Both the position numbers and the translations under genes were made by a program. 64,000 nt of DNA, taken from positions 372,001-436,000 of the forward strand of contig NZ_JALXFV010000002.1 of the NCBI RefSeq assembly GCF_023699475.1. Direction: 5' to 3'. Under the pieces are notes generated by a model that saw only the letters and a list, made by a program, of their open reading frames with translations, was not told where the DNA came from and ran no database searches. This DNA is from Halomarina rubra. Its GTDB lineage: Archaea; Halobacteriota; Halobacteria; Halobacteriales; Haloarculaceae. Positions 13,001-48,659 of the stretch are shown here, piece by piece; the first letter of the stretch is position 1, and the number at the start of each line of letters is the position of its first letter.

Positions 13001-15799
13001 ATGAAACAGAGTGGGCTGGCGGAGTTCTCGGCAGGGGGTGGCCAGGACCGCCCCGATGCCGAGGCCGAAGCCGTCGCGGGCGACGGCGGGGGTCTCGCGC
13101 CGGAGGTCGTCGACACCTCCGACTACCGGTATCCCGACCCCGACGGGAGCGTCGAACTCGCCGTGACGCAGGTCGACTACACCATCGAGGGGGCGGGCCG
13201 CGAGGAACACCCCGTGCTCCACGTGTTCGGCCGAACCGCCGACAACGAGACCGAACACGTCCGGGTTCGTGAGTTCCCGCCGTACTTCTACACGCCGCTG
13301 GCGGACCTCGAACGTGTCGAGAGCGCACCGGGGGCGGAGAGCGACGAACCGCTGCTCGCGAAGCAGTTCACCGACGACCGCCTGATGGAAGAGCGCATCA
13401 CGGGCGTCGAGACGATGGGCGACCTCGACCCGGAACTGTCGGGCGACGACGCCCAGGAGGTCGTCACCTACGAGTCCATCCGCGGGGAGACGCTCGTGAA
13501 GGTGACCGGTCAGACCCCGCGCGACGTGGGGCAACTGCGCGACCGGTTCGACCACTACGAGGCCGACATCCTGTTCCCGAACCGCCTGCTCATCGACAAG
13601 GACGTCACGAGCGGCGTTCGCGTCCCGGCCCGTCGGAACGACGACGGCGTCGTCGACGTGCCCCACCAGGAGGTACAGGCAGTGGACGTCGAGGCCGACC
13701 TCCGGGTGAACACGTTCGACATCGAGGTCGACGACCGCAACGGCTTCCCCGAGGACGGCGAGGAACGCATCGTCTGTCTGACGAGCCACGACAACTACCG
13801 CGACGAGTACGTCGTCTGGCTGTACGAGGCTCCCGACGGCGAGTCCGGCCCCGACGCCCTACCCGACTACGACCCGCTCCGGGAGGGGCCCGAGGTCGAC
13901 GTCCGTCGGTTCGACACCGAGGCCGCGATGCTGACGGCGTTCCTCGACTACGTCGACGAGACGGACCCCGACGTCCTGACGGGGTGGAACTTCACCGACT
14001 TCGACGCGCCGTACCTCATCGACCGCATCGACGTGCTCTCTGAGGCGGGTGAGGGCGACGACCAGTTGGACTCCGACCGCCTCTCGCGGGTGAACGAGGT
14101 GTGGCGTTCGGACTGGCAGGGACCGAACATCAAGGGCCGCGTCGCGTTCGACCTGCTGTACGCCTACAAGCGCATCAAGATATCAGAACTCGACAGCTAC
14201 CGTCTGGACGCGGTCGGCGAGGCGGAGTTGGGCGTCGGGAAGGAGCGTTACGCGGGCGACATCGGCGACCTGTGGGAGGAGAACCCCGAGCGCCTGCTGG
14301 AGTACAACCTGCGCGACGTCGAACTGTGTGTCGAACTCGACCGCAAGCAGAACATCGTCCCGTTCTGGGAGGAGGTCGCGACGTTCGTCGGCGCGAAGTT
14401 GGAGGACGCGACGACGCCCGGCGACGCAGTCGACATGTACATCCTCCACAAGGTCCACGGCGAGTTCGCTCTGCCCTCGAAGGGCGCGGTCGAATCGGAG
14501 GACTACGAGGGCGGCGCGGTGTTCGACCCCATCACGGGCGTCAAGGAGATGGTGTCGGTGTTAGACCTGAAGTCGCTGTACCCGATGTGTATGGTGACCA
14601 TCAACGCCTCCCCGGAGACGAAGGTCGACCCCGAGACCTACCAGGGGGAGACGTTCGTCGCGCCCAACGGGATGCACTTCCGGAAGGAACCGGACGGCAT
14701 CATCCGGGAGATGGTCACCGAACTCCTCGCCGAGCGTGACGAGAAGAAACGCCTGCGCGACGAGAACGCCCCCGGTAGCGACGCCTACGAGACGTTCGAC
14801 CGCCAGCAGGGTGCGGTGAAGGTCATCATGAACTCGCTGTACGGCGTGCTGGGGTGGGACCGGTTCCGCCTCTACGACAAGGACATGGGCGCGGCGGTGA
14901 CCGCGACGGGCCGCGAGGTCATCGAGTTCACCGAGCAGACCGTCGACGAGATGGGCTACGAGGTGGCGTACGGCGACACCGACTCGGTGATGATAGAACT
15001 CGGCGAGGGTGTCTCGAAGGAGGAGGCCATCGAGCAGTCGTTCGACCTCGAAGAGCGCATCAACGCCGCCTACGACGACCTCGCCGCCGAGATGAACGCC
15101 GAGGACCACCGCTTCCAGATCGAGTTCGAGAAACTGTATCGGCGATTCTTCCAGGCGGGGAAGAAGAAACGCTACGCCGGGCACATCGTCTGGAAGGAGG
15201 GGAAAGACGTCGACGACATCGACATCACTGGTTTCGAGTACAAGCGTTCGGACATCGCGCCCATCACGAAGGAGGTCCAACAGCGCGTCCTGGAGATGAT
15301 CGTCAAGGAGGGCGACATCGAGGGGGTCAAAGACTACGTCCACGACACCATCGAGCGCTTCGAGTCGGGCGACATCAGCGTCGAAGAGGTCGGTATCCCC
15401 GGTGGAATCGGCAAGCGTCTCGACGACTACGACACCGACACGGCCCACGTCCGCGGGGCGAAGTACGCCAACCTCCTGCTCGGGACGAACTTCGCTCGTG
15501 GGTCGAAGCCCAAGCGTCTCTACCTCGGGCGTGTCCACAACGACTTCTACGCGCGTATCGAGGCCGAACGTGGCCTCTCGACGCAGTCCGACGAACTGTA
15601 CCGAGAGTTCCGCAAGGAAGAGGACGTCATCTGCATCGAGTTCGCCGACCAACTCCCCGCGGAGTTCGAGGTGGACTGGGACGTGATGCTCGACAAGACG
15701 TTACAGGGGCCAATCGAGCGCATCCTCGAAGCCATCGGCGTCTCGTGGGACGAGGTGAAGTCGGGACAGACCCAGACGGGGCTCGGGAGCTTCGGGTAG
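13001..15799 (+). CDS. polB: Family B DNA polymerase
   Basis: 932 residues; replicative or repair polymerase with 3'-5' proofreading. Exonuclease motifs: Exo I FDIEVD (Asp240, Glu242), Exo II NFTDFD (Asp333), Exo III YNLRD (Tyr435, Asp439). Polymerase motifs: A DLKSLYP (Asp522), B KVIMNSLYG near 605, C YGDTDS (657-662). All catalytic Asp residues are present. No intein interrupts motifs A, B or C, although these are common intein sites in haloarchaeal polB. The start ATG at 13001 is set by a TTTTTACC element about 27 bases upstream. The first 30 residues are a flexible leader including the segment LAEFSAGGG. Confidence 0.96.
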   Translation: MKQSGLAEFSAGGGQDRPDAEAEAVAGDGGGLAPEVVDTSDYRYPDPDGSVELAVTQVDYTIEGAGREEHPVLHVFGRTADNETEHVRVREFPPYFYTPLADLERVESAPGAESDEPLLAKQFTDDRLMEERITGVETMGDLDPELSGDDAQEVVTYESIRGETLVKVTGQTPRDVGQLRDRFDHYEADILFPNRLLIDKDVTSGVRVPARRNDDGVVDVPHQEVQAVDVEADLRVNTFDIEVDDRNGFPEDGEERIVCLTSHDNYRDEYVVWLYEAPDGESGPDALPDYDPLREGPEVDVRRFDTEAAMLTAFLDYVDETDPDVLTGWNFTDFDAPYLIDRIDVLSEAGEGDDQLDSDRLSRVNEVWRSDWQGPNIKGRVAFDLLYAYKRIKISELDSYRLDAVGEAELGVGKERYAGDIGDLWEENPERLLEYNLRDVELCVELDRKQNIVPFWEEVATFVGAKLEDATTPGDAVDMYILHKVHGEFALPSKGAVESEDYEGGAVFDPITGVKEMVSVLDLKSLYPMCMVTINASPETKVDPETYQGETFVAPNGMHFRKEPDGIIREMVTELLAERDEKKRLRDENAPGSDAYETFDRQQGAVKVIMNSLYGVLGWDRFRLYDKDMGAAVTATGREVIEFTEQTVDEMGYEVAYGDTDSVMIELGEGVSKEEAIEQSFDLEERINAAYDDLAAEMNAEDHRFQIEFEKLYRRFFQAGKKKRYAGHIVWKEGKDVDDIDITGFEYKRSDIAPITKEVQQRVLEMIVKEGDIEGVKDYVHDTIERFESGDISVEEVGIPGGIGKRLDDYDTDTAHVRGAKYANLLLGTNFARGSKPKRLYLGRVHNDFYARIEAERGLSTQSDELYREFRKEEDVICIEFADQLPAEFEVDWDVMLDKTLQGPIERILEAIGVSWDEVKSGQTQTGLGSFG

Positions 15800-20810: not shown

Positions 20811-20883
20811 AGTCCCGTGGTGTAGTGGCCAATCATAACGGCCTTTGGAGCCGTTGACGGCGGTTCGAATCCGCCCGGGACTA
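20811..20883 (+). tRNA. tRNA-Gln (UUG anticodon)
   Basis: 73 bases, full cloverleaf. The acceptor arms AGTCCCG and CGGGACT pair. The anticodon stem ACGGC/GCCGT encloses the loop CTTTGGA with TTG at positions 34-36. The T-stem GGCGG/CCGCC encloses TTCGAAT, and the discriminator base is A. CCA is not encoded. No intron is visible. A T-rich CTTTTC follows directly, which may serve as terminator. Confidence 0.95.
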
Positions 20884-21099
20884 CTTTTCAAATCTAACAA
20901 CGAGAGAAACCCGAGCGCGTCTGCTGGAGGCGGTCACGGTCGCTCTGCGGGAACGTTCTCTACCGGAATCGAGTGGTGGTGGCGAGCGGCCGTCGTCCGC
21001 TCGTTCACCGTCGGCGTCGGTCGCCACAGTCACCGAGTGGGGCCCGGAGTCCCCGGGGCGTATCCGCTGTCGGACGCGATAAGCAGTGTTGCAGCACAT

Positions 21100-46885: not shown

Positions 46886-47000
46886 GGCCGTGTCTCACGC
46901 TCTCGTTCCTGTTGGCGAGGTACCACGATAAACTCGACTTGCGGTCCCGAAGACGGTCAGTCGGGTGGAACGGTCGGAGGGCAGCGCCCCGAGAACGACA

Positions 47001-47171
47001 CCGTTCGCCGTCGCTCGAAGGTCGGTAACAGGAAAGTGCTCCGACGGGGATTCGAACTCACTCGCGGCGAAGTCGCTCGTTGCTCGAATCCCGTCTCTGA
47101 TTCGATAAATCGAGCCGTTCACCGTCGCTCACGACTCGACTTCGGTAGAATGCTCCGACGGGGATTCGAAC
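47001..47171. repeat. 114-bp-offset direct duplication including the 3' end of tRNA-Glu
   Basis: Two 57-base copies, 47001-47057 and 47115-47171, 114 bases apart. Their last 21 bases are identical and equal the 3' end of tRNA-Glu (TGCTCCGACGGGGATTCGAA plus one C on this strand). Their first 16 bases match at all but one position, while the middle 20 diverge. Between the copies, TCGAATCCCGTC at 47084-47095 is inverted and can pair with the 47043-47055 arm, leaving one bulged G. The arrangement resembles an attachment site scar beside a tRNA. Confidence 0.6.
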
Positions 47172-47225
47172 CCCGGTCATCACCGTGAGAGGGTGATATG
47201 ATTGGCCGGACTACACCATCAGAGC
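47151..47225 (-). tRNA. tRNA-Glu (CUC anticodon)
   Basis: 75 bases on the minus strand. The acceptor arms GCTCTGA and TCGGAGC pair with one G-U. The anticodon stem TCACC/GGTGA encloses CTCTCAC with CTC at positions 34-36. The T-stem CGGGG/CCCCG encloses TTCGAAT, and the discriminator is A. CCA is not encoded. No intron is visible. Its 3' end is duplicated at 47037-47057, downstream in its direction of transcription. Confidence 0.95.
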
Positions 47226-47291
47226 AGTCCTCGTCTGCAATCTACTGTATCGGAGAACGACGTATAACGGTTCCGTTTCGCGGTCTCTGTG

Positions 47292-48530
47292 TCACTCGTC
47301 ATCGAACGTCGGCCGGGTCGCGTCGGGCTCTTCGCCCGCTCTCGAGATGATGTTCTCGCGGCCCACCCGGAGCTTGTGAATCTCCTCGTCCTCTTCCATC
47401 TCCGAAAGCAGCATGCTCACCTTCGACTTCGACCAGCCGGTCTCGTCGACGATGTTCACCTGTTTCATCCGCCCCCCGTTCGCCGCGAGCAGCGACCGGA
47501 CGCGGTCCTCGTCGCTCATCAGTTCCTCGTCGGTGACGGACGGTTCCGGCGCGGGTGTCGGGTCCGTCCGGCCGCCGGCGGCCGCGTCGGTGGCTCCCGC
47601 CGACGGGTCGTCCCCGGTGTCGCCCCCGCCGCCCGGCCCGCTCGCTCCCCGGTCGTCGTCCTCGTCCAGGTAGCCGTGTCGGAACGCCAGGCCGCCGAGC
47701 GAGACGAGCACGATGGCCCCGAACGCGAACGGCCAGACCGGGAGGTCGTTGCCCGCCGACGTGCCGTTCGCGGTGGTGCCGGTGGCGGCGGGACCGCCAC
47801 TGAGGGTCGGGGTCGTCGCTCCTCCGTCGCCGCCGTCGCCGGCCCCACCGTCGCTATCGTTCACCACCGGCGTCGCCGAGCCGAGTTGGTCGGCGTCGGC
47901 GAACACGACCCGCGGCTGCTGGTCGAGGAACTGCGCGCCGCCGGCGTCGCCGAGCCAGACGAGCGCGTCGCCGGTCTCCTCGACGCTCTGTTGTGGCTGT
48001 GGCTCCGCCTCGACCGGGACGAGTGCGTCGTCCCACGTCACGACGAGGCGCTGGTTCTCGGTGACGGTCAACCCACCTTCGAACACGTCGCCCACGACGA
48101 GACGGCCGTCCTGCTGGGCGGCGAAGTTCGTCCACCGGAACGACATCTCGACGACGCCGACGTCGTTGACGCCGGTCCGGACGTACGCGTCTTTCGAGAA
48201 CGACGTCGCGTTCATCTCCCGCCCCGTCTCGTCGGTGCCGGCGTCGGTGAGCGCCCCGGCACGGGTGACGAAGTTCCGGTACGACTGGGTCTCGTTGGAC
48301 TCGAACGACTCGGCGTACGCCTCGAACTGTGTGCGTTCCGACTCGTTGGCGAGCACGCGCTGGTAGCTGAACGTCCAGCGCGCGGAGCCGTTCTCGTCGA
48401 CGTGGATGGTGAACGCCTCGCGGTCGAACTCCTGTTGTGTGGTCGTCGCCGGCGTCGTCGCGGTGACGGCCGTCAGCGGCGTCATCGCCACGAGGAGGGC
48501 GAGCACCCCGACCACGACCAGCCGTTGCAT
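47292..48530 (-). CDS. Membrane-anchored protein with C-terminal winged helix
   Basis: 412 residues from ATG at 48530. A signal-like hydrophobic N-terminus (MQRLVVVGVLALLVAM) starts an extracellular beta-rich domain of ~220 residues. A Gly/Thr/Ala linker follows, then one membrane span (VWPFAFGAIVLVSLGGLAF), a Gly/Pro-rich tail and a C-terminal winged helix: MKQVNIVDETGWSKSKVSMLLSEMEE, with the wing at IHKLRVGRENIISR. I associate the ends with haloarchaeal DUF7345 and DUF7343, from memory. It probably senses an external signal and binds DNA at the membrane. TATA-like TTTTATACC is ~27 bases upstream. Confidence 0.78.
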   Translation of the reverse strand: MQRLVVVGVLALLVAMTPLTAVTATTPATTTQQEFDREAFTIHVDENGSARWTFSYQRVLANESERTQFEAYAESFESNETQSYRNFVTRAGALTDAGTDETGREMNATSFSKDAYVRTGVNDVGVVEMSFRWTNFAAQQDGRLVVGDVFEGGLTVTENQRLVVTWDDALVPVEAEPQPQQSVEETGDALVWLGDAGGAQFLDQQPRVVFADADQLGSATPVVNDSDGGAGDGGDGGATTPTLSGGPAATGTTANGTSAGNDLPVWPFAFGAIVLVSLGGLAFRHGYLDEDDDRGASGPGGGGDTGDDPSAGATDAAAGGRTDPTPAPEPSVTDEELMSDEDRVRSLLAANGGRMKQVNIVDETGWSKSKVSMLLSEMEEDEEIHKLRVGRENIISRAGEEPDATRPTFDDE

Positions 48531-48659
48531 CGGCGAATCGGTAGCCCGCGAGGTATAAAATCGACACGGCATGCGCTCGTTGTGCTACCGTGAGTCACAC
48601 CGGAAACGAACGTGATGGACACCGACTCGGCGACGACGTGTCGGAACGCCCGCAGTTCG

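Follow-up and report, generated by a model that had tools for sequence, protein, structure and literature searches.

Results

The tail of tRNA-Glu(CTC) in Halomarina rubra

The window, a 64-kb stretch of the 4.07-Mb genome of Halomarina rubra (G000), carries on its minus strand a tRNA-Glu(CTC) gene that is flanked by a sulfate permease gene and a DUF7345/DUF7343 membrane-type gene. Behind this tRNA gene its own 3' end recurs (Table 1). The stretches 47001-47057 and 47115-47171 start 114 bp apart and have the same base at 43 of 57 positions. Over the final 21 bases they do not differ and match the 3' end of tRNA-Glu(CTC), the exact copy lying at 47037-47057. Our comparison of the window sequence thus bears out an earlier note on this DNA, which had described two 57-base copies at this distance that share their last 21 bases with the tRNA 3' end. 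The first 36 bases of the repeat show a weaker likeness that goes back to a resemblance between the trailer hairpins GAGCGACGGTGAACGG and GAGCGACGGCGAACGG (minus strand), and not to tRNA sequence. The note had also pointed to an inverted stretch between the copies that could form a stem with one bulge. Indeed, TCGAATCCCGTC at 47084-47095 pairs with the tRNA-end copy leaving one bulged base, and the hairpin of TCGAATCCCGTC and the copy appears in the fold of the minus strand. Perfect inverted matching between the copy and its own unit extends over at most 9 bases, a length reached by 3 of 1000 shuffles. Throughout the window, the tRNA-Glu(CTC) repeat is the sole exact 20-mer direct repeat within 440 nt (two overlapping 20-mers). 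The window's other tRNA gene, tRNA-Gln(TTG) at 20811-20884, has no unit behind it; a decayed unit lies behind the same tRNA in Haloferax marinum.

Table 1. Features of the tRNA-Glu(CTC) gene and its tail, in the order of transcription of the tRNA.
Feature	Position	Strand	Basis
tRNA-Glu(CTC) gene	47150..47226	minus	ARAGORN limits; Rfam 47151-47225
The tRNA's own 3' end, T54 to discriminator base, TTCGAATCCCCGTCGGAGCA	47151..47170	minus	sequence
Trailer with first hairpin H1 (paired ~47102-47143); T-rich start directly after the tRNA	47096..47149	minus	sequence and fold
5' arm of H2, inverted T-arm copy, GACGGGATTCGA	47084..47095	minus	sequence; class-wide covariation with own tRNA
Loop region of H2, GCAACGAGCGACTTCGCCGCGAGTGAG, purine-rich, with GA-flanked inner stem	47057..47083	minus	sequence
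Exact tRNA 3'-end copy; T-arm part forms 3' arm of H2, acceptor strand mostly unpaired	47037..47056	minus	sequence
Tail behind the copy, T-rich start and second H1-like sequence	46996..47036	minus	sequence

Anatomy of the units

Units of this kind follow a common plan. They lie directly behind a tRNA gene and in its orientation, singly or in tandem, and 110 units from four genomes measured mostly 89-165 nt. A T-rich stretch after the discriminator is followed by H1, H2, the copied acceptor strand and again a T-rich stretch. H2 consists of an inverted copy of the T-arm, a loop of 20-60 nt that belongs to one of a few recurring kinds, and a 3' arm formed by the copied T-loop and T-stem. The direct copy comprises the tRNA's own 3' end from G53/T54 to the discriminator.

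The 5' arm of H2 follows its own tRNA: among the 140 of 201 units that could be anchored, positions 62, 63 and 64 were paired in fractions of 0.94, 0.75 and 0.49, compared with 0.07, 0.04 and 0.18 when the partner letter was taken from a tRNA differing there. Pairing stops at position 64 and is near background from 65 on, with or without a one-base skip. The copies fit the tRNA across all 20 nt, mismatches being commoner toward the discriminator. Pairing of the acceptor-strand copy with the sequence before the 5' arm (mean 4.40 of 8 versus 4.10 for swapped sequences) was too small to matter. Exact tandem units, in which the 20 bases following the tRNA and those following the copy are identical, accounted for 11 of 201, and there was a weak trend to more exact first copies (48 of 79 first versus 13 of 33 later copies; p 0.06). 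The purine-rich GA motifs are strand-specific, GAGCGA occurring 142 times on the tRNA strand and 16 times on the opposite one. Within 8-kb loci chosen by the H2 pattern, the GA-flanked hairpin motif reached 3.56 per kb up to 400 nt behind tRNAs versus 0.064 per kb elsewhere. GA-flanked hairpins of the same style occur away from tRNAs too, at L126 3136-3200 and similar places.

Occurrence in surveyed genomes and across the class

For the genome surveys, tRNAs were located with ARAGORN and a T-loop anchor, which gave 42 in the window's genome, and an own copy was scored if the last 20 nt of a tRNA recurred no more than 440 nt downstream and with 2 mismatches or fewer. This applied to 19 of the 42 tRNAs (22 at up to 4 mismatches) and, in genomes of other families, to 20 of 42 in G014, 12 of 37 in G143 and 16 of 35 in G040. 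For the latter two the survey covered only part of the 42 and 44 tRNAs listed by Rfam, and G112, the fourth genome of that search, was left out. Over the four genomes from four families, own copies lay downstream of 67 of 156 tRNAs and upstream of 0 of 156 (Fisher p ~1e-24), and when the cores of other tRNAs were put in as a control, 3 of 4986 matched. Haloferax marinum MBLA0078 had own copies behind 17 of 51 tRNAs (20 at up to 4 mismatches) once four whole tandem tRNA genes had been removed; upstream, 4 of the 51 had a match at up to 2 mismatches, a figure that equals the number of tandem tRNA pairs. Likewise, of the 207 tRNAs in the five genomes, 73 had an inverted T-arm (11 positions, no more than 1 mismatch) in the 400 nt downstream and a single one had it upstream. 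Occupancy is patchy: in each of the five genomes Ser-TGA and Arg-CCT have a unit behind them, while Asn-GTT, Ser-GCT and Ala-TGC lack one throughout. We rejected whole tandem tRNA genes as the source of the copies, as no tRNA body precedes the copy in the four surveyed genomes and the four H. marinum pairs had been removed.

Across the class, we used the hairpin pattern GGATTYGAN{20,50}TTCRAATCC, which is confined to tRNAs having that T-arm and hence detects part of the family. It occurred in 274 of 292 sampled genomes, the reversed control in 0; G143 had no match, yet bears units. In a sample of the phylum, matches were present in 31 of the 33 genomes that belong to the class and in 10 of 163 others, mostly single ones, and the reversed control matched in one genome. 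With a tighter pattern, GTDB contigs yielded at least 118 stretches, and all 80 among the matches listed came from haloarchaea. In 110 loci, 108 strand-matches of the first, looser pattern follow a same-strand tRNA, 94 of them with a copy at up to 3 mismatches; the remaining 117 strand-matches include opposite-strand readings of the same palindromes. Six of the 110 loci had matches without a tRNA, three of these matches lying at locus ends. Two other genomes of the phylum served as outgroup, where 1 of 32 tRNAs scored a partial copy, namely Ala-TGC of G437 with two matches; a second tRNA-Ala lies 360 nt away there, and no H2-like hairpin was seen by eye. Plain chance is ruled out by the upstream and swapped controls, the reversed pattern and the window-wide repeat count.

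The locus in the genus and the question of an attachment site

Since tRNA-Glu(CTC) adjoins the DUF7345 gene in all seven other genus genomes, we consider the locus orthologous across the genus. This neighbour (DUF7345/DUF7343, 47292-48572 in the window) is therefore found at the tRNA in eight of eight genomes, unit-less ones included. Five of the eight carry a unit, namely G000, G001 (two units), G002, G004 and G006, and none is present at this locus in G003, G005 and G007. G001 and G005 match from the tRNA up to nt 41 of the trailer and again further down, and differ between.

The earlier note had seen in the duplication the scar of an attachment site after the loss of an integrated element. 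Such an element does leave a direct repeat equal to the tRNA 3' end, and in this respect the tails resemble attL/attR tRNA attachment sites. However, the tails have tandem units and an inverted arm, occur at many tRNAs and come without integrase or element. In the window's genome there are 8 Pfam integrase matches, none of them within 150 kb on the same contig (the nearest PF00589 match on the contig is 153 kb off), and all 8 are more than 20 kb from each of the 42 Rfam tRNAs. No element was seen between the two copies in the seven other genus genomes; far downstream the search covered G005 alone, where 39.5 kb contained no second tRNA-end copy. Moreover, the same tail is found at about 45 percent of the tRNA genes of the window's genome, which belong to many kinds; most genomes of the class carry such tails, and the inverted arm fits each tRNA. 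The scar is thereby refuted as a general account, and that one lost integrative element left it at tRNA-Glu(CTC) is scarcely credible. According to the note, the same duplication in all relatives without a nearby integrase would instead indicate a conserved RNA. This agrees with our data in part: the unit is present in five of eight genomes, and the window's genome gave no evidence of an integrase nearby.

Shared interiors

In the five-genome survey, loops of different tRNAs reached a likeness of 85 percent or more in 12 of 593 pairs from one genome versus 4 of 2213 pairs from two genomes, the alike pairs not all being independent, as identical tandem units were counted more than once. Loop shuffles reached 80 percent likeness in 0 of 5000 cases. 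These figures are from the survey because loci picked by a loop-containing pattern would be biased. In G014, one loop stands behind Lys-TTT, Arg-CCG, Arg-TCT and Leu-TAG and a near variant behind Leu-TAA, the arms deriving from the own tRNA each time; the Lys-TTT and Arg-CCG units have H1 and loop in common and differ mainly in tRNA-specific letters. Loops common to different tRNAs, combined with arms from the own tRNA, therefore point to a spreading interior with ends of local origin. The Glu-TTC arrays of G001 and G005 are collinear and have kept their tRNA ends, and the inside of unit 2 has been replaced. Behind the tRNA-Leu at 706002-706086 (TAA-like place) in L269 (G014:C1:705000-707100), two kinds of H2 alternate at spacings of ~110 and 136 nt, which resembles the outcome of duplicating a block of two units.

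Pair statistics and loops

The arms contain 35 G-U and 36 A-C pairs. At the variable R57 site the counts are 11 and 14 in 277 distinct hairpins, and 3 and 4 in the five genomes. The tRNAs themselves have 31 G-U and 0 A-C pairs in acceptor stems and 54 and 1 in T stems, and the contrast between arms and tRNA stems is pronounced (Fisher p ~1e-10). A generic helix search gave 51 G-U and 58 A-C pairs in units; this search is noisy, because it returned only 21 to 10 for tRNA genes, and the exact tRNA stems are the better control. Folded apical loops are mostly triloops, often C-GNA-G. One loop position opposite a G is occupied by T in 111, G in 28, C in 18 and A in 6 cases (n=163).

Comparison with tyrT/RtT of E. 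coli

The tyrV gene of E. coli MG1655 is followed by three exact copies of its last 19 nt at intervals of 178 nt. Each RtT unit there contains a GA-flanked hairpin and an inverted arm whose pairing with the copied tRNA end amounts to 10 perfect bp, a length that 0 of 1000 shuffles attained. In L384 (E. coli MG1655 1285500-1288800), inverted T-stem and acceptor sequence of the RtT repeat pairs with the copied tRNA end. The RtT model RF00391 recognizes four units at the E. coli locus with 133-138 bits; its best match in the window's genome has 14.9 bits (E 7.5) and does not reach the cut-off of 45 bits, 8 unit-bearing loci gave no RtT match at E up to 1, and one of 14 control genomes scored above the cut-off. 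Because the model stays below its cut-off in G000, we regard the haloarchaeal units as working like RtT without being members of that family.

Both kinds of unit lie directly behind a tRNA, end in a copy of its 3' end, have an inverted arm that pairs with the copied end and contain a GA-flanked inner hairpin. However, RtT is confined to one operon with near-identical 178-nt repeats, whereas the haloarchaeal units follow many tRNAs in most genomes of the class and are mostly 89-165 nt long. In addition, the RtT arm pairs with T-stem and acceptor, while the haloarchaeal arm is fitted to each tRNA and pairs with T-loop and T-stem.

Discussion

The tail of tRNA-Glu(CTC) belongs, as a single unit, to a family of tRNA-tail repeats that extends through the class, and the anatomy and spread of this family are well supported. 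An extensive repeat family on the plan of E. coli tyrT has here been misread as a single scar. Its function and mechanism are putative. If our reading is true, a large share of haloarchaeal tRNA tails would be a recurring structured repeat instead of random spacer, without a family in the Rfam release searched, and att-site predictions could mistake such repeats for integration scars. Integron attC cassette arrays likewise consist of tandem units with imperfect end hairpins that are conserved more in structure than in sequence; in contrast, the tRNA tails have no cassette gene, and the likeness is one of analogy only. A 2012 paper reportedly dealt with tRNA-like elements in H. volcanii. In the open-access literature, including the accessible parts of PMC3119063, PMC8371274, PMC7237163, PMC7714728, PMC6490895, PMC4986893 and PMC2965389, we found no description of such haloarchaeal tRNA tails, an earlier one in a subscription paper being possible. 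Accessible text links RtT-like elements to BIMEs (PMC2965389) and describes PATE palindromic repeats for Haloquadratum (PMC3119063). REP/BIME and PATE are short, intergenic, non-coding palindromic DNA units as well, but the same text does not report them as carrying the 3' end of a neighbouring tRNA, which sets them apart by description and not by sequence.

The units are probably transcribed within the tRNA 3' trailer, like RtT in E. coli. They could constitute an RNA module that aids transcription termination or tRNA 3' processing, or that is released as a small RNA in the manner of RtT, the arms keeping the copied end off the tRNA body. Units occur only downstream and in transcription sense, the strand-specific purine-rich GA motifs are concentrated behind tRNAs, and hairpins upstream of 503 H. 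volcanii termination sites are reported in the accessible part of a published study. RtT units share the plan and, in the accessible text of PMC4986893, are reported as stable RNAs that the tyrT transcript releases and that affect the stringent response. The T-rich stretches behind the copies, as behind tRNAs, suit transcription termination, and the mostly-T loop position opposite G would suit wobble in an RNA helix, or else reflect a sequence motif. These points, like the stable RNA of the E. coli counterpart, count against a purely DNA-level reading, as do arms that match the local tRNA, which are not expected of the cargo of a simple transposing cassette. However, the arms contain G-U and A-C pairs in equal measure and tRNA stems do not, which argues against selection on an RNA helix. 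Moreover, about half of the tRNAs have no unit, the set varies among genomes, and an RNA module leaves the identity of the unpaired acceptor strand unexplained. We consider such a module rather unlikely. The other suggestion of the earlier note, a tandem duplication that forms an RNA hairpin, thus described the anatomy correctly; membership in a class-wide family and pair statistics unlike those of RNA-helix selection speak against it as a full account.

Overall, we tentatively prefer, at a little under an even chance, to see the units as class-wide haloarchaeal tRNA-tail repeats made of palindromic DNA that spreads and turns over by recombination and is not kept as an RNA helix, the enzyme and the movement being putative. 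Judged by the sequences, the lack of a G-U preference favours a recombining palindrome at the DNA level. C-GNA-G triloops, which are frequent here, are especially stable in DNA and typical of stable DNA hairpins. Under the recombining-palindrome reading, units would be duplicated by recombination between repeated tRNA ends, interiors could be exchanged between units, and ends might be re-copied from the local tRNA, while the hairpin may act as folded single-stranded DNA or arise as a product of template switching. More doubtful, though conceivable, is the broader proposal that class-wide DNA palindromes take up the 3' end of the local tRNA while their interior spreads between loci, with E. coli tyrT/RtT as the bacterial case and not a private oddity.

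Recombination might also act on sequence that has no function at all: fold-back template switching at the quasi-palindromic T-arm could generate the units as a neutral by-product, amplified and lost by unequal recombination. The inverted arm does copy the local T-arm, arrays vary and decay, and there is no sign of RNA-helix selection. A by-product of this kind is nevertheless improbable, given that the repeats are near-universal in the class and rare outside it and that recurring loop kinds and H1 would be unexpected from independent accidents. An element that integrates into a tRNA 3' end normally leaves the tRNA restored, none was found to use a copy, and G005 lacks a distal copy in 39.5 kb. 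These observations make it very hard to believe that the downstream copies are decoys that divert virus or plasmid integrases from the tRNA gene, even if each copy covers the 3'-end region that archaeal integrases prefer according to the accessible text of PMC8371274.

If our reading is correct, the haloarchaeal tails would supply many cases comparable to E. coli tyrT/RtT, so that origin and role become testable by comparison. It would also bear on tRNA genes as recombination hot spots and, in the model group Haloferax, on the ending and maturation of tRNA genes. For H. volcanii tRNA-Pro, the accessible part of a published report mentions two RNA 3' ends. We draw no link from this tRNA to a unit; the stretch examined at tRNA-Pro(TGG) of H. 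marinum contained no recognisable trmY adjoining it. Viral sequences gave pattern matches as well: contigs L218 and L221 have a match but no ARAGORN tRNA, and on IMG/VR contig L217, which may be virus, provirus edge or host DNA, a tRNA-Glu(TTC) is followed directly by a match to the H2 pattern (13744-13909).
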